Made by a program: the position numbers and the translations under genes. A stretch of DNA of 56,923 bases from an uncultured Bacteroidota bacterium (GTDB lineage Bacteria > Bacteroidota > Bacteroidia > Bacteroidales > P3): contig CADBOG010000037.1 in NCBI GenBank assembly GCA_902796265.1, positions 1 through 56,923 of the forward strand, in the 5' to 3' direction. This document shows positions 42,577 to 56,739 of this stretch, one piece after another. Below the pieces are notes generated by a model. That model saw nothing but the letters and a program-made list of their open reading frames with translations. It did not search any database and was not told where the DNA came from. The stretch's first letter is position 1, and the number at the start of each line of letters is the position of its first letter.

Positions 42577-43716
42577 TTAATAGTTGTTCTTTAGCCACCA
42601 GGCAAAGAAATAATCGTAGATTCTTGTTCCGTTCCCGGTGTTGGAGATGATTTCTTTGTCGTTAAGACCCTTGATTGCTGATTGGACGGAACTTGCTGAG
42701 TCGAGTGAGTATTTTTTGATAAATGCTCCCGAGGTGGCTGATTTTACGATACCTTCATGAGCAATGGCTTGCAACACCTGTTTCTGTTTAGGGGAAAGCA
42801 TGTTTAGCTGTGTTTGATAGGCCCCCTCTTGAATATCGATGATGTTTTGTCTCGCCTGTGGCAGCATGGCGGGTGTGCAGGTCTGGCCGGCAGCGGTGAT
42901 GGCAAATAGTTCGTTCAGCATCATCTGCATGTACCATGTGGTTCCCTCGTAATCATCGTAGATGGTTATTACTGCCGAAGGATCCAGTTGTTTGCCATAA
43001 AGAGAGAACAGGCGGCAGGCAAAGTCTGTGTACACTTCGCGGTTCAAGGGTCGTAGGTCCATGAGTTGGGCACTTTGGTAAAAAGGACGTGACTTTGAAT
43101 GGAACATCTGCTCGATGGAATGCTGACGGCTGCCGCTGAATATGAACGATGTGTTTTGGCAGTTATGTATGATTCCCCGCAGAGTGGCTTCCACTCGTTT
43201 CTCTTGGAACTCGGCAATTTGTTGGAATTCGTCAAAGGCCACAAGGCATGGCTCGTTGGCCTCCTCCAGATAGGTGAAAATCTCCTCTAGTGTCGTCGTT
43301 GGATTCTCTATCGTGCCGATACCTAGCTCGATGGAAGGTTCTCCGGTGATGGTGTCGACCTTCAATCCTGCTCGAAGCGACTTGATAGTCTTAAAAAAAA
43401 CCTCCCATTGTCTCTCCTTTTTGCTCTTCAAGCGTTCGAATACCGCCTTGCCAAAGATGTAGCACATCTCTTGAAGGGTGGATGCTGGGTAAATGTCCAC
43501 GAAGAAAGTATAATATTTCTTAGTAATCTCGTCTTGTGAGAATAGGTGGTGTATCAAACCAGTTTTCCCCAGGCGTCTGGGTGACATCAAAACGACGTTT
43601 CTTCCGTTCTCGATAAGTTTGATAAGGAGCTCTGTCTCCTCTTTGCGGTCGCAAAAAAACTCGTTTGGAATGCTCCTTGAAACGATGAAAGGATTACTTA
43701 TATTGTTGTTTTTCAT
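42577..43716 (-). CDS. AAA+ ATPase (COG1672-like, no nuclease domain)
   Basis: A 379-residue cytoplasmic ATPase of the 'archaeal ATPase_2' kind. Walker A is SPRRLGKTGL; Walker B is LVAFDEFQQI; the sensor region is FIFSGSRQHSIEQMF. The C-terminal part is a winged-helix-like domain (LSPKQKQVLQAIAHEGIVKSATSGAFIKKYSL), ending in 'DYFFAWWLKNNY'. Families of this type are expanded in Bacteroidota and have no settled function. The promoter has a perfect -33/-7 and a perfect 11-bp inverted repeat over the -7 element, which suggests tight, possibly self-directed control. Confidence 0.85.
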   Translation of the reverse strand: MKNNNISNPFIVSRSIPNEFFCDRKEETELLIKLIENGRNVVLMSPRRLGKTGLIHHLFSQDEITKKYYTFFVDIYPASTLQEMCYIFGKAVFERLKSKKERQWEVFFKTIKSLRAGLKVDTITGEPSIELGIGTIENPTTTLEEIFTYLEEANEPCLVAFDEFQQIAEFQEKRVEATLRGIIHNCQNTSFIFSGSRQHSIEQMFHSKSRPFYQSAQLMDLRPLNREVYTDFACRLFSLYGKQLDPSAVITIYDDYEGTTWYMQMMLNELFAITAAGQTCTPAMLPQARQNIIDIQEGAYQTQLNMLSPKQKQVLQAIAHEGIVKSATSGAFIKKYSLDSASSVQSAIKGLNDKEIISNTGNGTRIYDYFFAWWLKNNY

Positions 43717-43742
43717 TATAATATTAGTTATTGAATTTATAA

Positions 43743-43794
43743 TTATTACTTTTATAATAATTGCAAAAGTAATAAAAAAAACTCAATCGACAAA
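43743..43794 (-). promoter_or_regulatory. Promoter with perfect inverted repeat, 42577 ATPase gene
   Basis: On the minus strand TTTG (43791-43794), 19 bases, TACTTTTG (43764-43771). TTATTACTTTT (43743-43753) and AAAAGTAATAA (43765-43775) form an 11-bp perfect inverted repeat with an 11-base loop. It covers the -7 element and the likely transcription start, the expected place for a repressor operator. Confidence 0.75.
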
Positions 43795-43811
43795 AAAACT
43801 TTCAAAAAAAA

Positions 43812-43834
43812 GCCAGACGCTAAAAACGTCTGGC
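43812..43834 (-). terminator. Hairpin with T-run upstream of the 42577 ATPase promoter
   Basis: GCCAGACG (43812-43819) and CGTCTGGC (43827-43834), followed on the minus strand by T8. No gene is seen just upstream of it on that strand, so it may insulate the ATPase promoter or end an unseen short transcript. The rest of 43835-44068 shows no convincing gene; it includes a TGCAAATTTGCA palindrome at 43985-43996. Confidence 0.6.
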
Positions 43835-44068
43835 GAAATAATTCTTGGAAACTTGAGTTGTCCATTCGGTAGCATCCCTATTTCAAGCCTGCTCAAAAGT
43901 AGACTCTTACTCTTTGAAAAGCAATTCTTAGAGGTTGCCTTTATTTTTTGCCATATCACATTTTATGTAATTTTGCAGTTGAATTGCAAATTTGCATAAA
44001 GTGTATTTTATAGTTTGATTGATAGATGTTTAGTTGTGAACACCAAGATTTGTTGTTTTCTTCGGCTT

Positions 44069-44201
44069 GTTTAATGTGTTAAACAATTTTTGCTGATTTT
44101 TGTTTAATAGGTTAAACAGTTATTGCTATTTTTTGTTTAATGTGTTAAACAATTTTTGCTGATTTTTGTTTAGTATATTAAACATTTTTTGTATCTTTGC
44201 A
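44069..44201 (+). promoter_or_regulatory. Four palindromes at exact 33-bp spacing ending in the ATPase promoter
   Basis: GTTTAATGTGTTAAAC at 44069-44084 and 44135-44150, GTTTAATAGGTTAAAC at 44102-44117 and GTTTAGTATATTAAAC at 44168-44183 start exactly 33 bases apart. The 17-base spacers are alike (AATTTTTGCTGATTTTT). In the last unit the spacer is the promoter itself: ATTTTTTGTATCTTTGC (44184-44200), with -7 TATCTTTG at 44192-44199. The fourth palindrome covers the -33 position. The ATG of the ATPase follows at 44219. Confidence 0.85.
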
Positions 44202-44218
44202 CTATAAATTTGTTTTTT

Positions 44219-45418
44219 ATGGAGAAGCTTTTTTCTTTGCAACGACAACTGATTCAGAATTGTAGCACATCTTTTGTCCGGTCGCTGATGAATGAAATTG
44301 ACTGGGCAAACACCCGCCTTATTGGCATCCGTGGTGCCAGGGGAGTGGGTAAAACGACCCTACTCCTCCAGCACATCAAGTTGCATTACGGGGTTGCTAC
44401 CAAAAAAGCCCTGTACATAAATCTCGACAGTACGTATTTCTTGCAACACGACTTGATGGACACCGTTCAGACTTTCTATACATCGGGCGGCGAATGTCTG
44501 CTGTTGGACGAGGTACACCGCTACCCGCATTGGAGTCAATATGTGAAGAACATCTTTGATTTGTATCCAACAATCAAGATTGTTTTCACAGGATCTTCGT
44601 TGCTGCAGATTCTCAATGCAGAGGCCGACCTCTCACGGCGTTGTGTGAGTTACGAGCTGCAGGGGCTCTCCTTCAGGGAGTATCTCCTGTTCTACCACAA
44701 AATCAGCATTCCTCAACTATCGTTTGACGACGTTCTGCACCATGCTGACGACATCTGTGTGGAGACGAACAGCAAGTGTCGCCCATTGGAGCATTTCAGT
44801 GACTATCTTAGCTCGGGTTACTACCCTTTCCGCAAAGATAATCCCAACAACTATTCCTCTCTGGTTGAAAATGTTGTGGATATGATTCTAGGCATCGAAC
44901 TGCCGCAGCAACGCGGTGTGGATGTGGGCAATGTCAGAAAGCTGAAGTCTCTACTGGCTGTGTTGGCCACAGAAGTGCCCATGTTGGTAGATATCAGCAA
45001 ACTGTCGAAGATGACGGAGTTGAGTCGCGTGAGCCTCACCTCCTATCTGCAATACCTCAACGATGCACGATTGATAAGACTGCTTTATTCAGACACCACA
45101 TCGGTGAAGAGGATGCAGAAGCCGGACAAAATCCTTATGGAAAACCCCAATCTATGTTTCATCCTCAATCTTGGACAGGTAAAAGAAGGGACTGTGAGGG
45201 AGTCATTCTTCTGCAACCAGGTTGCCTATCGGCATACGGTGGAATATACCAAGCCGGCCGACTTTGTTATCGACGGCAGAGTCGTTGTGGAGGTAGGAGG
45301 TGGTTCTAAAGACGGCACTCAAATTGCTGGTAATGAAAACGCCTTTCTTGCCTGCGATGGTATTGAATATCCATTCGGCAATAAACTCCCGCTATGGTTG
45401 TTCGGCATGATTTACTGA
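44219..45418 (+). CDS. AAA+ ATPase with DUF4143-type C-terminus
   Basis: A 399-residue protein (AAA_14 plus DUF4143). The ATG at 44219 (MEKLFSLQRQLI) is chosen because an upstream in-frame TTG at 44189 lies in the promoter. Walker A is GARGVGKTTLL (about 39-48), Walker B is LLLDEVHRYPHW (about 96-107) and the sensor is IVFTGSSLLQI. A winged-helix-like part follows (LSKMTELSRVSLTSYLQYLNDARLI). The C-terminal domain (about 320-399) has DFVIDGRVVVEVGGGSKD, a PD-(D/E)xK-like nuclease remnant in which the usual Lys is not evident. The function of this widespread family is unknown. The leader is very short (about 12-15 bases) and lacks a Shine-Dalgarno sequence. The promoter is the last unit of a palindrome array. 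Confidence 0.88.
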   Translation: MEKLFSLQRQLIQNCSTSFVRSLMNEIDWANTRLIGIRGARGVGKTTLLLQHIKLHYGVATKKALYINLDSTYFLQHDLMDTVQTFYTSGGECLLLDEVHRYPHWSQYVKNIFDLYPTIKIVFTGSSLLQILNAEADLSRRCVSYELQGLSFREYLLFYHKISIPQLSFDDVLHHADDICVETNSKCRPLEHFSDYLSSGYYPFRKDNPNNYSSLVENVVDMILGIELPQQRGVDVGNVRKLKSLLAVLATEVPMLVDISKLSKMTELSRVSLTSYLQYLNDARLIRLLYSDTTSVKRMQKPDKILMENPNLCFILNLGQVKEGTVRESFFCNQVAYRHTVEYTKPADFVIDGRVVVEVGGGSKDGTQIAGNENAFLACDGIEYPFGNKLPLWLFGMIY

Positions 45419-45460
45419 CATCTCCTTTCGTATTGGAGCAAATGGACCAAAACGGATGCG

Positions 45461-45489
45461 TTGTGTTTCAAAAAAACTTTGTACTTTTG
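45461..45489 (+). promoter_or_regulatory. Promoter of the HTH-like gene, nearly leaderless
   Basis: GTTG (45460-45463), 18 bases, TACTTTTG (45482-45489). The ATG at 45500 lies only 10 bases past the -7 element, so the transcript should be leaderless or nearly so. Confidence 0.6.
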
Positions 45490-45499
45490 CAATCTATTT

Positions 45500-46084
45500 A
45501 TGGAGCATTCTGACAACATATATTTGGATAATTTGCGGCGCCTTATATGCGAGGCGGCTGGTTGTGAGGCTAAATCGCCTGCCGACCTTTACACGCTTGT
45601 GGCTTTCATTGAGAACCGCACACGAGAAACAATAGGACTCACTACTGTCAAACGTATGTGGCAATATGGAGGCCTCAGTTCAAAGCCTCGCCAGAGCACT
45701 CTCAACGTGATGGCTCGCTCTATCGGTTACCGCAACTATGACGATTTCTGTGAACATTATGGCGACTGTACACCGTCGAGTGACATCGTGCTTGGCGAAA
45801 GTATAAAAGTGTCCGATTTGAAATCGGGTGACAGATTGATGTTGCGTTGGAATCCGGGCCGTGAGATTGTGGTTGAATGTCTGGGCAACAGCACTTTCCG
45901 TGTACTAAAAAGTGAAGGTAGCAAACTGCATGCCGACGATACCTTCCAAGCTGCCATATTCGCCTTGGGTCACTCGGCCTTGCTCTCCAACGTGATACAC
46001 GAAGACTCCTCGTGGCCGCTCTATGAGATTGGCCAACAAGGTGGTCTGACTCTTATTCGCCAACTCACATCGAGAGGCGAATAA
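45500..46084 (+). CDS. HTH-like Bacteroidota protein of unknown function
   Basis: A 194-residue cytoplasmic protein. The ATG at 45500 (MEHSDNIYLDNLRRL) is chosen over an in-frame start at 45461 that lies in the promoter. The N-terminal 85 residues resemble the small helical domain seen in many Bacteroidota proteins: 'IGLTTVKRMWQYGG', then 'RQSTLNVMARSIGYRNYDDF', where a helix-turn-helix is likely. The C-terminal half is beta-rich (DRLMLRWNPGREIVVECLG ... FRVLKSEGSKL). DNA binding is inferred. It sits 280 bases upstream of the kinase-LRR gene on the same strand but is separated from it by a terminator. Confidence 0.65.
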   Translation: MEHSDNIYLDNLRRLICEAAGCEAKSPADLYTLVAFIENRTRETIGLTTVKRMWQYGGLSSKPRQSTLNVMARSIGYRNYDDFCEHYGDCTPSSDIVLGESIKVSDLKSGDRLMLRWNPGREIVVECLGNSTFRVLKSEGSKLHADDTFQAAIFALGHSALLSNVIHEDSSWPLYEIGQQGGLTLIRQLTSRGE

Positions 46085-46113
46085 TACTTTTATTTATTGT
46101 TTTTTTGAGACTT

Positions 46114-46155
46114 TGGAACGACGCATCCTTGCGACTCGTTCCATTGTCTTTTTTT
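46114..46155 (+). terminator. Terminator of the HTH-like gene
   Basis: GGAACGA (46115-46121) pairs with TCGTTCC (46136-46142), followed by a T-rich run (46146-46155). The remaining bases to 46363 hold no firm gene. A very short frame at 46293-46349 and a Shine-Dalgarno-like AAAGGAGG at 46351-46358 precede the kinase. Confidence 0.7.
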
Positions 46156-46363
46156 ATAAACATTTGTTCACGTCATTATTTTTTCCGACTTTTGCAAAAC
46201 AATATAAGAGAGAGTTTTTTGTAATTGGTTGAATCTGCGGATGTTTTTTGTGCTATATTAATGCAAATCGCTAAATGAATAGCATTTTTTACATGAAAAT
46301 GACTAGAAGACAAGCGGAGAAAGACCGCCTAAATATATTAATGAATAATAAAGGAGGCTCTGT

Positions 46364-48145
46364 ATGCTGAGCGATGGTCCTTCTGGATTGGTGTCGGGTG
46401 GTGCCGGCATCACTGAGCCTTTCTTCTCGTCTTATGAGGAGATTGGTCGTGGGACATGTCATGTGCTGTGGCGTGCACGACGCTTCGGACGTTGGTATGT
46501 CCTCAAAGGAATCAAAGAGGATTTCCGTGGCAATGACATCTACAAGGAGTGGCTCTATAAGGAATACAGCATTGGCGTAAGTCTCGACAATCCTAACATC
46601 GTGCGTGTCGATAGCCTTGAGGACGACAAAGTGGCGGGATTCTGCATTGTGATGGAATGGATTGAGGGCGAGACCCTTGACAAATGGAAGAACGGAAAGA
46701 GTAATGCCGAACGGCGACGTGTCTTCAACCAGCTGCTCGATGCTGTCGATTATCTTCACAGGCATGGTATATACCACCACGACATAAAGCCTTCCAACAT
46801 TATGGTCACGCCCGACGGACGTGTGAAGCTTTTAGACTTCGGACTTAGTGATGGCCCTCAGTATGCTTCGTTCAAGCAGGCGTCTGGAACTGAAAACTAT
46901 GCCTCACCTGAGCAACGCGAAGGAAGAGAGTCTGACCATCGTGCCGATATCTATTCTTTGGGTCGAATTGTGGAGTTTCTTTTCGCTCGCCGCTATCCGT
47001 TTGCTGTGCGTCGAGCCACACGTGTCGATGTCAGTCGACGGCCCCAGTCGGTGGCAGCGCTCCGCAAATTGTTGGTGCCAGTATGGCCAGCATGGGTGTT
47101 GGCAGGATTGCTTATGGCAATACTAGTGGTAACGGTGTTGCAACCGTCTCCTAGACGCTTTGCCATAGAGCTGGAGAGTGGACAGACAGTATGGATGTGT
47201 GAGGTGAGCAGAGTGCCACAAAGACAGGTGGCGGTCGTGCCTCCAACTTCAGCGGATATGAAACCATGGCCAGAGGAAATGGCTAAACCACAGGGCGATA
47301 TGTTGATTCCTGCCACTATTCGCCATTTGGGTTTGGAATGGACTGTGGTTGGTGTTGACGACAATGCCTTCAAGGACATTTATGAGCTGACATCGGTGAG
47401 GTTTCCTGAAACTCTTCTTAGCATTGGTCAGGCAGCTTTTCTCGGTTGCATAGGTCTACGCGACACTCTTATTATCCCTTATGGTTTGCGGAGCATCGGC
47501 TCGATGGCTTTTAATGACTGTTCGGGCCTCACCACCCTTATATGGAAAGCCCGAAACTGTCAGGGGAGCCAACATGACACAACGCTGAGATACAGCTATT
47601 TCTACCGATGCATGGGGCTGTCCGACATCATTATCGACACAGGGGTGGAACAATTGCCTGTCGAATTTATAAGCAATGTGTCGGGTGTGAAGCGGTTAGA
47701 GTTCAAGAGCGCAACACGCACTGCTATCATAAATCTTGCTGCAAGGAATCCTCAGATGCGTCATTTGGTGCTGCCACCACAGATGAAAGAGATATGTCAC
47801 GGAGCATTCTACGAAACAGGTATTGACACTCTTATGTTGCCCGACAGTCTTGAGATTGTGGGTGATTATGGCTTCGCCTACAGCAAAAACCTGCGTGTGG
47901 TGTATATGGGAGAGAAGGTGCGGAAAGTGGGCAGCTACAGCTTCACTGAATGTTCGCAACTTCAGGAGGTGATATTGTCGGCTCCGGTACCGCCCGATGT
48001 GAAGTACACTACTTTCTATCAACTCCCATCGACAGCTGTGCTGCGTGTCCCTGCTGAAAGCGTACAAACCTACCGTGATCACCCGATATGGGGTCAGTTC
48101 CCATCGATAGAACCCATTGTTACCTCTCCAGAAGAGAAAAGGTAG
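46364..48145 (+). CDS. Transmembrane Ser/Thr kinase with extracytoplasmic BspA-type LRR domain
   Basis: A 593-residue protein. The cytoplasmic N-terminal kinase (about 20-225) has a Gly loop (EEIGRGTCHVLWRA), the ATP-binding Lys48 in YVLKGIK, a catalytic loop YHHDIKPSNIMV (Asp140, with HHD in place of HRD), DFG at 158-160 and the 'ASPEQ' segment in place of APE; all key residues are present. A single membrane segment (WPAWVLAGLLMAILVVTVLQ, about 241-261) leads to an outer domain with five to six LRR_5 units of the BspA kind (about 325-560: 'SVRFPETLLSIGQAAFLGC', 'DTLIIPYGLRSIGSMAFNDC', 'DTLMLPDSLEIVGDYGFAY'). By analogy with PASTA kinases the outer domain may be a sensor. The start has a strong Shine-Dalgarno (AAAGGAGG, 6 bases before the ATG), unusual in this window. 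The stop codon falls in a 24-bp direct repeat. Confidence 0.85.
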   Translation: MLSDGPSGLVSGGAGITEPFFSSYEEIGRGTCHVLWRARRFGRWYVLKGIKEDFRGNDIYKEWLYKEYSIGVSLDNPNIVRVDSLEDDKVAGFCIVMEWIEGETLDKWKNGKSNAERRRVFNQLLDAVDYLHRHGIYHHDIKPSNIMVTPDGRVKLLDFGLSDGPQYASFKQASGTENYASPEQREGRESDHRADIYSLGRIVEFLFARRYPFAVRRATRVDVSRRPQSVAALRKLLVPVWPAWVLAGLLMAILVVTVLQPSPRRFAIELESGQTVWMCEVSRVPQRQVAVVPPTSADMKPWPEEMAKPQGDMLIPATIRHLGLEWTVVGVDDNAFKDIYELTSVRFPETLLSIGQAAFLGCIGLRDTLIIPYGLRSIGSMAFNDCSGLTTLIWKARNCQGSQHDTTLRYSYFYRCMGLSDIIIDTGVEQLPVEFISNVSGVKRLEFKSATRTAIINLAARNPQMRHLVLPPQMKEICHGAFYETGIDTLMLPDSLEIVGDYGFAYSKNLRVVYMGEKVRKVGSYSFTECSQLQEVILSAPVPPDVKYTTFYQLPSTAVLRVPAESVQTYRDHPIWGQFPSIEPIVTSPEEKR

Positions 48146-48189
48146 GCGAATAGGGGAGAGAAAAAGTAGGCGAATAGGGGAGAGAACGA
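48132..48189. repeat. 24-bp direct repeat at the kinase stop codon
   Basis: GTAGGCGAATAGGGGAGAGA occurs at 48142 and again at 48166 (period 24), with a partial copy before. The first copy supplies the kinase TAG stop. Confidence 0.8.
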
Positions 48190-48200
48190 AGGATGTCGAT

Positions 48201-49196
48201 TTATGCTGGAATAAGTTTGTTCCGCATGGCAACCCATACATTATTAATATAGAAGCGGCGGAACATTGACTGGCCGTATAGGGCTCGATACTTGCGACCG
48301 TAACGGATGTACTTCCAGCTGCGACGGGCAACACGAACTATGGCAAGTCGGTGTCGCTCGGGACATTGCATGTAGAGCAAATCGAAATCGTCGGCAACGA
48401 GTGTGTCGGGTACTTGACAAGGGAAATCCGTGCCGAACAACCTGTTGCAATATAATGTCATGAGTTCAATAAACAGGTCGACATCGGTGCCACTCTTGAT
48501 TTTGCGAAGAGCCTCAAGGTCGAAGTCGCCACTTCGCAGAAGTATGCACCAGTCAATCAGGTCGCGAAGCCTTATGGGATTATGGAAGAAGACGGCATGA
48601 TGTTCCATGTGCTTGGCAAGGAAGAAAAGATGCTGGTAAAGGGGCAGGGCGTAGGTGGCAGTTTCTGGATGGATTGGGACGTTGAGCCACTTGGGGTCGT
48701 CGTTGTGGTATAGCAGATAGGAATGACATTCGAAATCAACATCATGGAAGATGAAGCTGATGTGTCGAGGGTCTTTGCGGTCGACTTCGATACCGAGCGA
48801 CTCGAGTCTCCGTGCAATGCTCTCTGTGTCCGAACCGGTGTAGAGGTCGTTGTCGCCACATTCGCGATGCAAAGGGTTGGGATATTGGCGAGCTATTGCT
48901 GAACCTTTGACGACAACTGTTGGTAATCCAAGCGGTTGCATCACCTCATCCTGAAATGCCACAAGCGCTTGATGGCGAAGTGTGTTGTCTCGCTCGATGG
49001 TTTGTGTCATCGACAAGAAATGGAACAGCACGCTGCGTGAAGGGCGTTGCTCCTTGGTCAGCATCAACAGGGCATCGTAAAGCAAGGCCGTCACAGCCTG
49101 CCGACGCGACTCCTCAAAAAGTTGCTTCCAGTCGTCGGCAGAAAGAACCTTTTCGTCATTCAGCGGATTGTCGCCGCCAAAAAGGCTGAAAGCCAT
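48201..49196 (-). CDS. Nucleotidyltransferase-fold protein (NTP_transf_5-like)
   Basis: A protein of about 331 residues. The core motif VVVKGSAIARQYPNPLHRECGDNDLY matches the 'uncharacterised nucleotidyltransferase' family (PF14907), in which a GS...D-x-D arrangement binds metal; here the acidic pair is DND. The substrate is unknown; relatives occur in polysaccharide and peptide-modification clusters. The ATG at 49196 shares its A with the TGA of the upstream glycosyltransferase (TGATG), so translation is probably coupled. A longer start at 49226 (10 more residues) is possible. With the glycosyltransferase it forms a two-gene surface-glycan-like unit. Confidence 0.75.
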   Translation of the reverse strand: MAFSLFGGDNPLNDEKVLSADDWKQLFEESRRQAVTALLYDALLMLTKEQRPSRSVLFHFLSMTQTIERDNTLRHQALVAFQDEVMQPLGLPTVVVKGSAIARQYPNPLHRECGDNDLYTGSDTESIARRLESLGIEVDRKDPRHISFIFHDVDFECHSYLLYHNDDPKWLNVPIHPETATYALPLYQHLFFLAKHMEHHAVFFHNPIRLRDLIDWCILLRSGDFDLEALRKIKSGTDVDLFIELMTLYCNRLFGTDFPCQVPDTLVADDFDLLYMQCPERHRLAIVRVARRSWKYIRYGRKYRALYGQSMFRRFYINNVWVAMRNKLIPA

Positions 49197-50179
49197 CAAT
49201 CGTGTGAGGGTCGTAAGATGCGGCATACAAATGATAAAAGAGAGTGAATGACAATGTTTTTCAGCAGACGTTCCTTGATGTTGCGAGGAATGAAAGTGTC
49301 TTGTATGATGGTTTTGTAGAATAGTTCCCTATATAATGCGGTCGGGACACCTTTGACGGCAAGAACCCTCATGTAGACATAACTGTAGCGATGGTAGAGA
49401 TCCTCGATGTGAGGCAAATCCGCATGCCGTGCCTTGAACTGCGACAGATGGGAAAAAAACAACTGGATAAAGGGCATGAAGGTTGCCGATTTGTCTTTCG
49501 ACCATGCTCCTGCTGTCACTGACGGCGAATCGGTATGACGGATATAAAGAGAGCAATCATCGGCAGAAACAATGTTTTTTGCCTTTTCCAGCAGCTGAAG
49601 CACAAATATCGAATCCTCTAATATCTCGCAATTCTCTATATAACGGATGTCTGGGTTATTCATCAGAAACTCGCGACTAATCCAATAGGTGGTATGGTCG
49701 AGGCAATGGCTGCGAGGGATGAGAATGTCCGAAAGGCGTGATGGGTGATGGGTGATGGGTGATGGATGTTTGGTGACGTGCTGTTTGCCGTCGACCATTG
49801 GGCCGATATGTAGAAGCTCTACATTGTTGTCCAGCTCTTTAAGCTTCGGCCACCATAGGTTCATCAGTTCTGTGTCTATCTCATCATCGGCATCGACAAA
49901 CCATACAAAACGTCCTTGGGCAGAGAGCAGGCCCTTGTTGCGAGCAGCTGACGCACCTTGATTCTTGGGGTTGGTGATGAGCTGCACAGTGAGCTTTGAA
50001 TCCTTTGAAGAAAGTTCGGCAACTAAAGACTCTGCTTGCTGGCGTTGGCTGTCGGTCGACCCATCGTCAACAACAACCACTTGCAACTCGTCGCCCAACT
50101 TGGACGCTACAATTGAATGTAGGCAGCGGCCGAGTAGGGCGACGTTGTTGTAATGTGGTATGATTATTGTAAGGATCAT
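49196..50179 (-). CDS. Family 2 glycosyltransferase with an in-frame heptamer repeat
   Basis: A 327-residue GT-A fold glycosyltransferase that transfers a sugar from a nucleotide-sugar donor, probably for a surface glycan. It has the start TIIIPHYNNVALLGRCLHSI, the nucleotide-binding VVVDDGSTD, GASAARNKGL and the DxD motif in VWFVDADDEID. C-terminal to this is helical sequence ending RILRPSHD. Residues about 139-147 (HPSPITHHP) are encoded by four tandem CATCACC heptamers, which look like an insertion in an otherwise ordinary protein. It is co-transcribed with the nucleotidyltransferase gene. Confidence 0.9.
   Translation of the reverse strand: MILTIIIPHYNNVALLGRCLHSIVASKLGDELQVVVVDDGSTDSQRQQAESLVAELSSKDSKLTVQLITNPKNQGASAARNKGLLSAQGRFVWFVDADDEIDTELMNLWWPKLKELDNNVELLHIGPMVDGKQHVTKHPSPITHHPSRLSDILIPRSHCLDHTTYWISREFLMNNPDIRYIENCEILEDSIFVLQLLEKAKNIVSADDCSLYIRHTDSPSVTAGAWSKDKSATFMPFIQLFFSHLSQFKARHADLPHIEDLYHRYSYVYMRVLAVKGVPTALYRELFYKTIIQDTFIPRNIKERLLKNIVIHSLLSFVCRILRPSHD
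49738..49765 (-). repeat. Four GTGATGG heptamers inside the glycosyltransferase gene
   Basis: Perfect tandem copies on the plus strand at 49738, 49745, 49752 and 49759. On the coding strand they read PSPITHH. Gain or loss of one unit would shift the frame. Confidence 0.9.
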
Positions 50180-50230
50180 TATCTATACTGTTCCGAGAAC
50201 GGAGCAAGCTGAAATGAAACCCACAATGCT

Positions 50231-51688
50231 TTACTTCTTCTCAGGGATGGCTTCGAGGGAAGCGAGAAGGAAGTCGTAGAACTTCACGCAGCTGGGGATG
50301 TTGGCACGCTCATCGGGGCTGTGAGGACTGTTCAGCGTGGGGCCGAAGGAAATCATATCCATATCGGGATACTTGCCTCCGAGAAGACCGCACTCGAGAC
50401 CAGCGTGGATAGCCATAACAGCAGGCTCTTTCTTGTAGAGCTTCTTGTAGGTGGCCTTCATGCTCTTAAGCAGCGGGCTTTCCATGTTGGGCTTCCAGCC
50501 AGGATATGCGCCAGAGAGCTGGCATTTGCCGCCTGCAAGTTCAGCGAGGCAAACAAGACGCTCAGCAAGAGCCTCTTTTGCAGTGTCGACAGAAGAACGC
50601 AGCAGAGCGTAGACGACAAATTTCTTGCTGGGAGTTGTTTTGGCAATAGCGAGGTTGAGAGAGGTCTCTACGAGGCCTTCCATATCCTTGCTCATGCGGA
50701 TAACGCCGTTGGGGGCAACCATCATGAGGTTGATGATCTTCTGGGTGCCTTCTTCGTCGATGACGGTGGGGTTCATGCGGACCTTCTCATATTTCATGCA
50801 GAAGTCGGGCTCAACATTGGCGAGTTCTTTCTTCACCCAGCCAGCAACTTTCTCAAACTCCTTGAGGATGCACTCTTCGTGCTCCTTGGGCATAGCGATG
50901 ACAGCCTCAGCGTCGCGCGGGATGGCGTTACGCATGTTGCCGCCCTCAATGCTGATGAGGCGGATGCCGCATTCGGCAACCCAGCGGAGGTGGCGGAAGA
51001 GAAGCTTGTTGGCATTAGCACGGCCGGTGTTGATTTCCATGCCAGAGTGACCGCCCTTGAGACCGCCAATGGTGAGCTTGTAGGCAACCATACCCTTGGG
51101 AGCCTTTTCGGTAGCGTAGGGGATGCTCAAAGCGGCATCTATACCACCAGCGCAGCCTACATAGAGCTCGCCTTCGGTCTCGGAGTCGAGGTTGAGGAGA
51201 TAGTCACCATGCAGTTCGCCAGCCTTGAGTCCGAAAGCGCCAGTCATACCGGTCTCTTCGTCGGTGGTAATGAGAGCCTCGAGAGGACCGTGCTTGATGG
51301 TTTTCGACTCGAAAACAGCCATGATGGCGGCAACACCAAGACCATCATCGGCACCGAGAGTGGTGTCGCATGCATAGACCCAATCGCCAACGATTTTAGT
51401 CTCGATGGGGTCTTTCAGGAAGTCGTGTTTCTTGCCGGCACGAGCCTGGGGCACCATATCCATGTGAGCCTGCAGGACAACGGGGCAGCGGTTTTCCATA
51501 CCCTTGGTGGCGGGCTTGCTCATGATGACGTTGCCAACTTTGTCAACACGGCAGTCGATTTTTTTCTTCTTTGCCCAATCGACGAGGAAGTTGCGGACAG
51601 CCTCTTCGTGCTTTGACGGACGAAGGCAACGGGTCAGGGAGTAGAAATTGCTCCACAATGCTTTCGGTTCAAGATCTTTGATTGTCAT
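50231..51688 (-). CDS. pepD: Aminoacyl-histidine dipeptidase (PepD, M20 family)
   Basis: A 485-residue cytosolic metallo-dipeptidase of the M20C group (PepD, also named Xaa-His dipeptidase). The metal and catalytic residues are visible: His in VVLQAHMDMVP, bridging Asp in TLGADDGLG, the Glu pair in TTDEETGMTG, Asp in LLNLDSETEG and the C-terminal His in LNSPHSPDER. The length fits the family. It has its own consensus promoter (51736-51766), back to back with the palindrome array of the 51949 ATPase gene. Confidence 0.95.
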   Translation of the reverse strand: MTIKDLEPKALWSNFYSLTRCLRPSKHEEAVRNFLVDWAKKKKIDCRVDKVGNVIMSKPATKGMENRCPVVLQAHMDMVPQARAGKKHDFLKDPIETKIVGDWVYACDTTLGADDGLGVAAIMAVFESKTIKHGPLEALITTDEETGMTGAFGLKAGELHGDYLLNLDSETEGELYVGCAGGIDAALSIPYATEKAPKGMVAYKLTIGGLKGGHSGMEINTGRANANKLLFRHLRWVAECGIRLISIEGGNMRNAIPRDAEAVIAMPKEHEECILKEFEKVAGWVKKELANVEPDFCMKYEKVRMNPTVIDEEGTQKIINLMMVAPNGVIRMSKDMEGLVETSLNLAIAKTTPSKKFVVYALLRSSVDTAKEALAERLVCLAELAGGKCQLSGAYPGWKPNMESPLLKSMKATYKKLYKKEPAVMAIHAGLECGLLGGKYPDMDMISFGPTLNSPHSPDERANIPSCVKFYDFLLASLEAIPEKK

Positions 51689-51735
51689 AATGTTATATTA
51701 TAAATTAATGATTTCAATACTTATCTCAGAGAAAA

Positions 51736-51766
51736 CAAAGGTACATTTTTTTTTCGAATTGGCAAA
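51736..51766 (-). promoter_or_regulatory. Consensus promoter of pepD
   Basis: On the minus strand TTTG (51763-51766), exactly 19 bases, TACCTTTG (51736-51743). The ATG is at 51688. Confidence 0.8.
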
Positions 51767-51785
51767 TATTTTTTTTAAAGATAAA

Positions 51786-51941
51786 ATATTTTCTGCGGAA
51801 TGATGACATTTTTGCATCAATTCCGCGAAAAATATTGTATATTTTCCGCTGAATAATGCTGTTTTTGCATCAATTCCGCGAAAAATAATGTGGATTTTTC
51901 GCGGAATAATGTATTTTTTGTATCTTTGCAGCGAAAAATAA
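51786..51941 (+). promoter_or_regulatory. Three 53-bp hairpin units, the last carrying the ATPase promoter
   Basis: Each unit is an inverted repeat of a TATTTTTCGCGGAAT-like arm and its complement around a TTTTTGC box. The boxes end at 51814, 51867 and 51920, exactly 53 bases apart. Units 1 and 2 share TTTTTGCATCAATTCCGCG. In unit 3 the centre is replaced by ATTTTTTGTATCTTTGCA (51913-51930), the promoter with -7 TATCTTTG at 51921-51928; the predicted -33 falls in the left palindrome arm. The ATG is at 51949. Confidence 0.85.
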
Positions 51942-51948
51942 TTGCATT

Positions 51949-53343
51949 ATGATTGGAAGAATCTTTGAACAACAGGAACTTATGCGTATTAGTAATTCTG
52001 AAGAATCAGAATTTGTAATGATTTACGGAAGGCGACGTGTTGGTAAGACTTATCTTGTTCGCGAATTCTTCGATGACAAGTTCACTTTTTCTTGCACAGG
52101 CATCGCAAAAGGCGACAAAGCGGAGCAATTGGCGAATTTTCGCTCTGATCTCGACCGTTATACCAATGAGACGCATCCTATACTGAAGTCTTGGTTTGAA
52201 GCTTTCAATTCGCTCCGTTCGATTGTGGAGAAATCCAAAAGGAAACGCAAGGTCATCTTCCTTGACGAAGTCCCTTGGATGCACACGCAGAAGTCTGATT
52301 TCTTGAAAGCTGTGGAGCATTTTTGGAACGCCTTCGCCTGCCCTCGTCATGATGTGGTATTAATCGTCTGCGGGTCGTCAGCATCTTGGATGGTGAAAAA
52401 AATGGTCAATGACAAAGGAGGTCTCCACAACCGGATAACTCTGCCGCTCAAGATTCTCCCCTTTACCCTCAACGAGACACGCGAATATCTTGTTTCACGC
52501 AAGATACGTTGGGATGAAAAGACAATAGCTGAATGCTATATGGCACTCGGAGGCATCCCTTATTATCTGAAAATGCTCGACAGAAGGCTGAGCCTGGCAC
52601 AAAACATGGACAGAATGTTCTTCAGCAGTAAGGCTCTTCTTGGCAACGAGTTCGACAACCTTTATGCTTCACTTTTCAAGGATTCGCAGCAGTATGTGAA
52701 AATAGTCGAAATCCTGTCGAAGAAAAAGGTTGGGTTCACGCGCGACGAGATTATCAAAAAAGGAAAATTCAAGGATGGGGGCAACGTCAGCGAGAAGCTC
52801 GATGACCTGGTGGAATGTGGATTCGTAAGAAAATATGATTCTAGGGGTAAGGTTGGAATGCTTTTCCAGCTGAGCGATTTCTTCACAATGTTCTATTATC
52901 AGTTCGTGAAGAAGGGCTCGTTTGGCGACGAAGACTATTGGATGCATACCCAAGGTACTGCGGCTTACAACACATGGAAAGGGCTCTCGTTCGAGAGGCT
53001 CTGTTTCGCTCATTTGCAGCAGATGAAGCATGCACTCGGTGTTGACGGAGTTCTCACAAAAGCCTTTGCATACTATAGCGACAAAACACAGATTGACATG
53101 ATTTTGGAACGCAACGACCGCAATGTGAACATCATCGAGATGAAGTATTGCGACGGGTCATACACTTTGACCGCAAAGGAGGTCGAAAAAATGAAAACAC
53201 GCAAAGATATCGTAAGCAAACTGTACAGAAAACGTATGGCTTTCAGCATTGTTATGGTTACGACCGAAGGTGTAGTACAGAACCAATACTCTTCGGAAAT
53301 GATTCAGCGAACTGTTAGATTGAACGACTTATTTAAAGATTGA
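51949..53343 (+). CDS. AAA+ ATPase with DUF234 and PD-(D/E)xK nuclease-like C-terminus
   Basis: A 464-residue protein of the ATPase_2 (PF01637) plus DUF234 (PF03008) architecture. Walker A is YGRRRVGKTYLV (about 26-37), Walker B is KVIFLDEVPWMH (about 102-113) and the sensor is LIVCGSSASWM. A winged-helix follows (about 255-300). The C-terminal part has the full nuclease signature: Asp in TQIDMILER and, 13 residues on, Glu-x-Lys in NIIEMKYC. So, unlike the DUF4143-type ATPase at 44219, the nuclease site looks intact. The function of the family is unknown. The leader is very short and lacks a Shine-Dalgarno sequence. Expression starts from the last unit of a hairpin array. Confidence 0.9.
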   Translation: MIGRIFEQQELMRISNSEESEFVMIYGRRRVGKTYLVREFFDDKFTFSCTGIAKGDKAEQLANFRSDLDRYTNETHPILKSWFEAFNSLRSIVEKSKRKRKVIFLDEVPWMHTQKSDFLKAVEHFWNAFACPRHDVVLIVCGSSASWMVKKMVNDKGGLHNRITLPLKILPFTLNETREYLVSRKIRWDEKTIAECYMALGGIPYYLKMLDRRLSLAQNMDRMFFSSKALLGNEFDNLYASLFKDSQQYVKIVEILSKKKVGFTRDEIIKKGKFKDGGNVSEKLDDLVECGFVRKYDSRGKVGMLFQLSDFFTMFYYQFVKKGSFGDEDYWMHTQGTAAYNTWKGLSFERLCFAHLQQMKHALGVDGVLTKAFAYYSDKTQIDMILERNDRNVNIIEMKYCDGSYTLTAKEVEKMKTRKDIVSKLYRKRMAFSIVMVTTEGVVQNQYSSEMIQRTVRLNDLFKD

Positions 53344-54838: not shown

Positions 54839-55007
54839 GAATTGAGAATTGAGAATTGAAACCTTCCAACACTCAAATCCCCTCTGCGCGAGCCACTGGC
54901 TCTTGCAACCTGAAACTTGATACTTGAAACTTGAAACCTGAAACTTGAAACCTGAAACTTGAAACTTGAAACCTGAAACCTGAAACGGCCGAAGGCCACT
55001 TGAAACC
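54830..55007 (+). repeat. Complete composite repeat: GAGAATT array, hairpin core, GAAACTT array, GGCC hairpin
   Basis: In order: four GAGAATT heptamers (54830-54857); a 52-base core (54869-54920) with the palindrome GAGCCACTGGCTC (54890-54902); about ten GAAACTT/GAAACCT heptamers (54911-54986); and GGCCGAAGGCC inside a 26-base segment (54982-55007) repeated exactly at 12450-12475 (reverse complement). It ends 10 bases before the ATG at 55018. Confidence 0.85.
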
Positions 55008-56671: not shown

Positions 56672-56739
56672 AAATATGCCGATAGCACTACAATAAGTGG
56701 GTAAAAAGGGTGGGTTATTGTAGTGCTATCGGCATATTT
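56672..56739. repeat. 25-bp perfect inverted repeat with 18-base loop
   Basis: The arms are 56672-56696 and 56715-56739 (core GCCGATAGCACTACAATAA and its complement), with the loop GTGGGTAAAAAGGGTGGG. The stem has no mismatch. T-rich tracts lie on both sides. 56571-56671 holds only short open frames and nothing I can assign. Confidence 0.9.

Follow-up and report, generated by a model that had tools for sequence, protein, structure and literature searches.

The stretch of DNA considered here (the window, 56,923 nucleotides) is contig CADBOG010000037.1, or C37, of the 2.29-Mb assembly of an uncultured bacterium of the order Bacteroidales; this assembly, which is 82% complete, is the one covered by the assembly-wide motif searches described below. 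The window harbors three ATPase genes recognized with Pfam: 42577 (on the minus strand), 44219, and 51949. Inverted repeats lie over all three promoters, as stated in the original prediction made from the sequence of the window. The subject of this text is these repeats, their counterparts ahead of related genes, and the proteins that may read them.

ATPase Genes and Candidate Operator Arrays in the Window

Gene 44219 (44219–45418, plus strand) encodes an AAA_14 ATPase of 399 residues that resembles PDC-S01, as judged from Pfam, PADLOC, an AlphaFold2 model, and invariant residues. The protein combines an AAA+ domain, a predicted winged helix-turn-helix (HTH; residues 236–307), and a C-terminal PD-(D/E)XK-like motif (D348/E358/K364). 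The motif is named by eye and after PMC12988326, and its three residues are invariant across 76 aligned sequences of the 44219 subfamily. Six PADLOC profiles fall below an E-value of 1e-5, and the PDC-S01 match has an E-value of 8.3e-29. PDC-S01 is also assigned to 76 of the 76 members of the alignment; among the AAA_14-type genes counted below, the scan covered 44219 and this subfamily. Gene 51949 (51949–53343, plus strand) encodes an ATPase_2/DUF234 protein of 464 residues that resembles PDC-S27 (Pfam, PADLOC), the profile matching nearly its entire length (residues 1–462, E 1.8e-178). The third gene, 42577 (42577–43716, minus strand), encodes 379 residues; here the Pfam match to ATPase_2 is below the cut-off and that to AAA_14 just above it.

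The candidate operator array of 44219 (44067–44184, plus strand) consists of four near-identical 18-bp palindromes, TGTTTA(A/G)TNNNTTAAACA (TGTTTA..TTAAACA), at 44068–44085, 44101–44118, 44134–44151, and 44167–44184, with starts exactly 33 bp apart. A Bacteroidetes-type promoter follows (44184–44201, plus strand) with the −7 box TATCTTTG at 44192–44199. The candidate array of 51949 (51777–51935, plus strand) comprises three 53-bp units with split inverted repeats (CCGCGAAAAAT / ATTTTTCGCGG); the tandem unit has perfect arms (ATTCCGCGAAAAAT / ATTTTTCGCGGAAT), and relative to unit 1, unit 2 has 81% identity and unit 3 has 66%. In the last unit (51894–51939, plus strand) the arms ATTTTTCGC (51894–51902) and GCGAAAAAT (51931–51939) enclose the −7 box (TATCTTTG, 51921–51928) of the promoter at 51913–51930 (plus strand). 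The same enclosure is seen by eye in some PDC-S27 relatives (L299, L308, L314). For both genes the −7 box is assigned according to what we take to be the Bacteroidetes-type promoter consensus. Upstream regions were scored for their best direct repeat against dinucleotide shuffles, with z ≥ 4 counted as significant; z is about 20 for 44219 and 30–40 for 51949. The 44219 motif TGTTTARNNNNTTAAACA occurs at four places in the assembly, each within the 44219 array, and ATTCCGCGAAAAAT, with at most one mismatch, at three, each within the 51949 array. A regulon for the two motifs was rejected because all assembly matches fall in their own arrays.

Over the 42577 promoter lies the inverted repeat TTATTACTTTT..AAAAGTAATAA (43743–43775, minus strand; arms 43743–43758 and 43760–43775). 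Taken alone it is weak, being equaled in 4 of 100 shuffles. It is retained in the three closest orthologues (L331–L333, 64–72% identity), two of which carry changes that match between the arms, and the picture in more distant relatives is mixed. A copy of the 42577-type palindrome also precedes a different ATPase of 375 residues (L345, genome G124), where it resembles a left-over promoter.

In 31 of the 53 genes that allow both elements to be placed, the last operator is centered 16–18 bp upstream of the −7 box. Together with the enclosed −7 box of 51949, this means that the operators overlap their own promoters, as in autoregulated operator systems. By its position on the promoter the operator looks like a repressor site, with activation as an alternative. 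In Bacteroidales, phase variation proceeds through inverted repeats around promoters, and the −7 box between the arms in 51949 would be in keeping with arrays that are invertible promoters. However, the arrays hold tandem copies at a fixed period with short arms, and the 44219 palindromes lie beside the promoter, not around it, which makes this a very unlikely explanation.

The promoters at 44184–44201 and 51913–51930 are the same 18 bases, ATTTTTTGTATCTTTGCA, as had been claimed. With up to three mismatches the 18-mer has four matches in the window, compared with a mean of 0.11 in shuffles. The ATG follows after 17 bases in 44219 and 18 in 51949, again as claimed; Bacteroidetes genes often lack a Shine-Dalgarno sequence. 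The identity was originally read as part of a shared design. Yet a 17-base core of the 18-mer occurs five times in the assembly, and the other three occurrences precede the genes of serine hydroxymethyltransferase, dnaG, and a CoA-ligase-like protein. Because the core also precedes housekeeping genes, the 18-mer was rejected as an element of the design, and we take it for an ordinary housekeeping-type promoter of the Bacteroidetes type.

A Constant Period Ahead of Related Genes

In the organism's own genome, 10 of 16 ATPase genes have a significant direct repeat. The period is 32 bp at one locus (L002) and 33 bp at five (L003, L004, L006, L008, L009); at the others it is 21 bp (L007), 53 bp (L010, L015), and 52 bp (L016). 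Control promoters of the same genome, 138 after removal of three regions at the ATPases of the window, are significant in 23 cases, with periods of 11, 14, 16, 24, 25, 28, 41, and 49 bp. Across 446,522 bp of this genome, only three repeats have a period of 31–34 or 51–54 bp and a score of at least 19. All lie ahead of ATPase genes: 44219, 51949, and the gene of L015, whose array sits inside an over-extended open reading frame (ORF) call.

A survey of AAA_14 and ATPase_2 genes in the genus comprised 83 loci, two of them without a usable gene; 16 came from the own genome, and 67 represent the 98 matches listed in other genomes. The 12 other genomes searched included two without a match. Over all 82 genes, 53 are significant, the period being 33 bp in 23 and 32 bp in 15. 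When the arrays are stacked, the sequence varies from gene to gene and the period stays constant. Within its family, relatives of 44219 are significant in 21 of 30 genes (one of 31 subfamily genes was dropped for too short an upstream region), 19 of them at 32 or 33 bp. In named genomes, where the best 80 loci were used, 35 of 75 genes are significant, 30 at 32 or 33 bp and two at 65 or 66 bp; from the combined named-genome and plasmid set, 5 of 91 loci were dropped and 11 further ATPase genes of those loci were moved to the pooled analysis. Relatives of 51949 (4 of 30 loci without a usable gene, 23 of 27 genes kept) are significant in 9 of 23 cases, 8 of these at 52–54 bp.

The pooled set holds 258 genes, 249 of them distinct and 248 with enough upstream sequence. 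It was divided by the motif GRRR[VI]GK, not by PADLOC, into 219 AAA_14-type and 29 PDC-S27-like genes. AAA_14-type genes are significant in 119 cases, 93 of them at 32 bp (36) or 33 bp (57), and PDC-S27-like genes in 10, seven of them at 52–54 bp. As controls, 258 promoters were taken from other genes at these loci, and 31 of them are significant. Repeats of the 33 type (31–34 or 64–66 bp) precede 100 of 219 AAA_14-type genes compared with 5 of 258 controls (Fisher p 3e-34), and two of these five belong to the array of one ATPase that the filter overlooked. The comparison of ATPase genes with other genes, as originally proposed, yields an enrichment. A further 43 control genes divergent from an ATPase were kept apart because they share its upstream region; 12 of these have z ≥ 4, eight at 32 or 33 bp. 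Periods of at least 20 bp tend to be integral numbers of helical turns. Among ATPase genes, 110 of 125 such periods deviate from a whole turn by no more than 0.15 turn, compared with 10 of 17 in the controls. About half of the sampled family members carry private, helix-phased repeats ahead of the gene. The constant period went unnoticed in the first reading of the window, and the pattern is larger than first described.

Alternatively, the arrays may be neutral minisatellites arising by replication slippage, and other intergenic repeats do occur in this genome, including those at the 23 significant control promoters. Their periods differ, however, whereas the ATPase arrays hold 32–33 or 52–54 bp across unrelated sequences. 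Neutral slippage, the most improbable of the explanations considered, is contradicted by the constant period and by the co-variation described next, and was rejected.

Probable Recognition of the Array by the ATPase

The AlphaFold2 model of 44219, built from 76 sequences, is confident (pLDDT 93.5, pTM 0.91) and contains helices at residues 236–251, 259–266, and 270–282 together with two strands, which we read as a winged HTH. By E-value, the best Foldseek match in the PDB is 2qby_A, an archaeal Cdc6/Orc1 initiator on origin DNA (E 6e-7, TM-score 0.31).

Co-variation was used to find which 12-residue stretch of the protein, after correction for the remaining residues, is the strongest predictor of similarity between half-sites. 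The sample comprised 119 subfamily genes, of which 106 have a motif score of at least 8 and 68 entered the main run. The peak falls on residues 259–270 (partial r 0.29), the next four windows also lie inside 259–282, and none of 200 permutations reaches the peak. With stretches of 8, 12, or 20 residues and sets of 106, 84, 68, or 52 genes, the top stretch stays within 259–280 and is reached by 0–5 of 200 permutations. No peak is significant (13–151 of 200 permutations) for control 10-mers taken 0, 10, 200, and 225 bp before the ATG or for a 10-mer from the spacer. The half-sites themselves are diverse, 64 of the 68 being different, with the outer TTG in common and the inner bases variable. In the main run, co-variation of the operator half-site is strongest with the HTH of its own ATPase (residues 259–282). 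On these sequence comparisons, the protein itself probably reads the private repeats ahead of its own gene.

Alternatively, the operators may be read by another, host-encoded regulator, with the ATPase devoid of specific DNA binding. Single operators found without their gene would suit such a regulator. However, the co-variation of the motif is strongest with the ATPase's own HTH. In addition, the motifs differ by gene and the two that were searched match only their own arrays in the assembly, so that many dedicated regulators would be required. This explanation is therefore unlikely.

Modules in Different Surroundings

Orthologues of 44219 with 74–85% identity occur in four other genomes of the genus, in different surroundings. 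In the stretches of 10.6–19.9 kb around them, no neighbor from the window is recognized, apart from weak hits to repeat proteins and, in L191, a homologue of 53346 (75% identity over 147 residues) at a distance of about 3.3 kb. Similarity at the DNA level starts at the array and stops at or near the stop codon. Array, promoter, and ORF are common to 44219 and the four orthologues, with 4, 2, 2, 2, and 3 operator copies, respectively.

Direct repeats between the 500-bp flanks (score ≥ 30) are found at 42 of 234 ATPase genes compared with 3 of 409 control genes (p 1e-16), and inverted ones at six ATPase genes compared with one control gene; the control excludes P-loop proteins and genes of fewer than 150 or more than 650 residues. 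The flanking direct repeats around ATPase genes suggest mobility. The flank repeat coincides with the operator itself at some loci (L314, L299, L307, L184) and falls outside the array at others (L235, L236, L245, L260); L168 is a further example among the 42 genes. For 9 of the 42, the start of the right copy is 10 nt or less from the stop codon.

An orphan operator of a PDC-S27-like module, with no gene behind it, lies near the end of the window (56681–56730, minus strand; split inverted repeat GATAGCACTACAATAA..TTATTGTAGTGCTATC). It is present in 5 of 119 genomes of the genus. Elsewhere it precedes a PDC-S27-like gene in genomes G124 and G187, as well as a PDC-S01 module in G124. In G156 it lies 44 bp behind a PDC-S27-like gene that has no exact copy ahead of it, and in G197 it occurs without a recognized ATPase. 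Such an orphan would be the expected leftover of recombination between direct operator copies.

These features bear on a second explanation, in which the array is also the end of a mobile unit. The module would move, either with the help of its own nuclease or through recombination at its repeats, and would be left between direct duplications, with regulation as a by-product or second role. The flanking repeats, the position of their right copies, the different surroundings of the orthologues, and the existence of orphan operators all speak for it. To our knowledge, no transposition chemistry has been described for this family, which we count against this explanation. The repeats also range from 33 to 305 nt ungapped and up to 675 nt gapped, in contrast to the fixed short target duplications of transposable elements. 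Most genes have none, including the three of the window, and the left flank of L156 is itself repetitive. No empty site was found among the loci examined. In two pairs (L307/L311, L299/L314), the loci have both flanks in common and each holds the module, so that some modules keep their place. On the supporting side, one study lists COG1373 among the genes co-shared between gut genera (PMC10782964). On balance, we hold this mobile-unit explanation to be possible but tentative. A bolder form of it, which we consider doubtful, is that of new single-gene mobile elements: an Orc1-like protein with AAA+, HTH, and nuclease domains would read its own phased array as both operator and element end, insertion of array plus gene would produce long direct target duplications, and the differing half-sites would confer mutual immunity.

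Plasmids and Viral Contigs

Results in other phyla are mixed. A first plasmid set of 11 loci was chosen from 60 records listed for the L119 protein. Outside Bacteroidota, significant arrays occur in it at a period of 32 bp on plasmids of Criblamydia (Chlamydiota; z 15) and Acinetobacter towneri (z 10) and at 42 bp on one of Vescimonas (z 16); a Bacteroides plasmid carries a 66-bp array (z 4.9). No array with z ≥ 4 is seen in this set on those of Fusobacterium, Vibrio, Ruminococcus, Sulfuricurvum, Agrobacterium, Segatella, or Runella. In a second set of seven loci, genes of Treponema and Moraxella have one long palindrome ahead of the ATG, the repeat of the archaeon Methanomethylovorans, with a period of 32 bp, is weak (z 2.2), and nothing with z ≥ 4 is seen for Thermus, Acidithiobacillus, Wolbachia, or Nitrosomonas. 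One of five viral contigs carries a 33-bp array (z 8.8).

Other Features of the Window

Between 44219 and 51949 lies a gene (46364–48145) that joins a protein kinase domain (PF00069) to BspA-type leucine-rich repeats (PF13306). In L333 (G110), the 42577 orthologue (65% identity) has as neighbors a gene resembling 45500 (35%) and a kinase resembling 46364 (41%), the arrangement seen in the window (42577–48145), and the trio may belong together. Beside relatives of 45500 (13 loci, L317–L329), neither 42577 nor 44219 is recognized and no clean empty site was found; a kinase like 46364 is recognized in four of these loci (L324, L325, L326, L329).

A minisatellite of 7-base units (ACTTGAA/ACCTGAA) at 54902–54986, followed by CGGCCGAAGGCCAC, lies ahead of 55018, and similar repeats with the same ending precede other genes (L055:18901, L044:5507). 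Elsewhere, a 24-bp tandem repeat, CTTTCTTACTAATCAAGCTGTAAC, lies ahead of a 208-residue gene at a contig end (L059:15477–15650, z 68).

Relation to Known Systems

Genes 44219 and 51949 match the profiles of PDC-S01 and PDC-S27, which PADLOC treats as single-gene phage-defense candidates, and share with them the ATPase and the PD-(D/E)XK-like domain. According to PMC12988326, an ATPase domain is joined to a PD-(D/E)XK domain in these systems, and most core-set PDCs await validation. A rumen study gives PDC-S01 as the most frequent individual locus (PMC13356809). In both studies, the systems are counted by their proteins. An AAA_14/DUF4143 gene with HTH motifs from Thermus thermophilus, TT_P0211, appears with a value of 6.6 in a section of PMC4406477 on expression changes with plasmid DNA. 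No mention of promoter arrays in this ATPase family was found in the available portions of the open-licence papers searched.

The predicted AAA+ domain and winged helix of 44219 resemble those of archaeal Orc1/Cdc6 proteins, for which repeated boxes lie beside the initiator gene, although the TM-score of the fold match is low. In contrast, the ATPases described here have a C-terminal nuclease-like domain and many paralogues with different boxes, and the boxes lie on their own promoters. The presence of several modules per genome speaks against a role of the boxes as replication origins. Toxin-antitoxin systems, restriction controller proteins, and plasmid partition iterons involve self-binding at the promoter through phased, repeated sites, as would be the case for the present modules. 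Unlike such autoregulated operons with cooperative operators, the modules consist of one gene, whose product combines a predicted DNA reader with an AAA+ ATPase and a nuclease-like domain, and they exist in many orthogonal versions. With insertion sequences and transposons they share the non-syntenic single-gene unit and the direct duplications at some ends, but the duplications are long and variable, no inverted ends are common to all, and no known transposase is present.

A Model of Self-Regulated Modules

The favored explanation, to which we assign a probability of roughly three in four, is that operator array, promoter, and ORF form single-gene modules that are self-regulated and mutually orthogonal. 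The original prediction of such a module family is supported in part, without the 18-mer as part of its design. Different palindromes share one layout, the period is constant, each motif is specific to its gene and lies on the promoter, the half-sites co-vary with the HTH, and orthologues in other surroundings have both array and ORF in common.

A 44219-type protein, with its AAA+ ATPase, winged HTH, and PD-(D/E)XK-like domain, would bind its own upstream palindromes via the HTH. The sites are spaced by whole helical turns, three for the AAA_14/PDC-S01 kind and five for the PDC-S27 kind; protomers would therefore lie on one face of the DNA, where contact through the AAA+ domains would be possible. 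One or two protomers per palindrome, aligned along this face, would block the promoter. Because the last site overlaps the promoter, binding would shut the gene down. The ATP state or a signal, for example infection, may then release repression. Different half-sites would prevent paralogues within a cell from repressing one another, so that many of them could coexist. The nuclease-like domain may act on phage DNA or, during movement, on target DNA, or it may have no substrate at all. Binding, cooperativity, repression, and release are what we infer, as is a biological task of either defense or selfish persistence.

Several results weigh against the model of self-regulated modules. Among AAA_14-type genes, 100 of 219 have no significant direct repeat, some showing a single palindrome and some nothing visible. 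A phylum-wide sample is weaker, with 6 of 25 genes significant (periods 32, 32, 33, 34, 36, and 23 bp; 3 of 28 loci dropped for too short an upstream region). Two 66-bp repeats in the sample of the own genome are not ahead of a recognized ATPase. On the protein side, the Foldseek TM-score given above is low, and the AlphaFold model of 51949, built from four sequences, is poor (pLDDT 60.6) and went unused, so that it lends no support to an HTH in this protein. The co-variation permutations ignore phylogeny. With 30 genes, the maximum is reached in 3–8 of 200 permutations; the HTH region leads at two window sizes, whereas at another residues 299–306 come first and the HTH region third. Finally, a control 10-mer that ends 20 bp upstream of the ATG peaks at residues 45–56 (0 of 200 permutations), which is unexplained.

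The arrays point to probable binding places and provide a ready read-out in the form of the gene's own promoter, and residues 259–282 together with the half-site make up a candidate specificity code. Function, signal, and orthogonality thereby become directly testable, and the modules would represent a natural set of candidate, mutually orthogonal DNA-binding repressors. The arrays also raise the question of whether the family is concerned with defense at all. If the bolder mobile-element reading described above were true, many of the tens of thousands of PDC-S01 and PDC-S27 "defense" genes would be selfish modules, or defense modules that move themselves.

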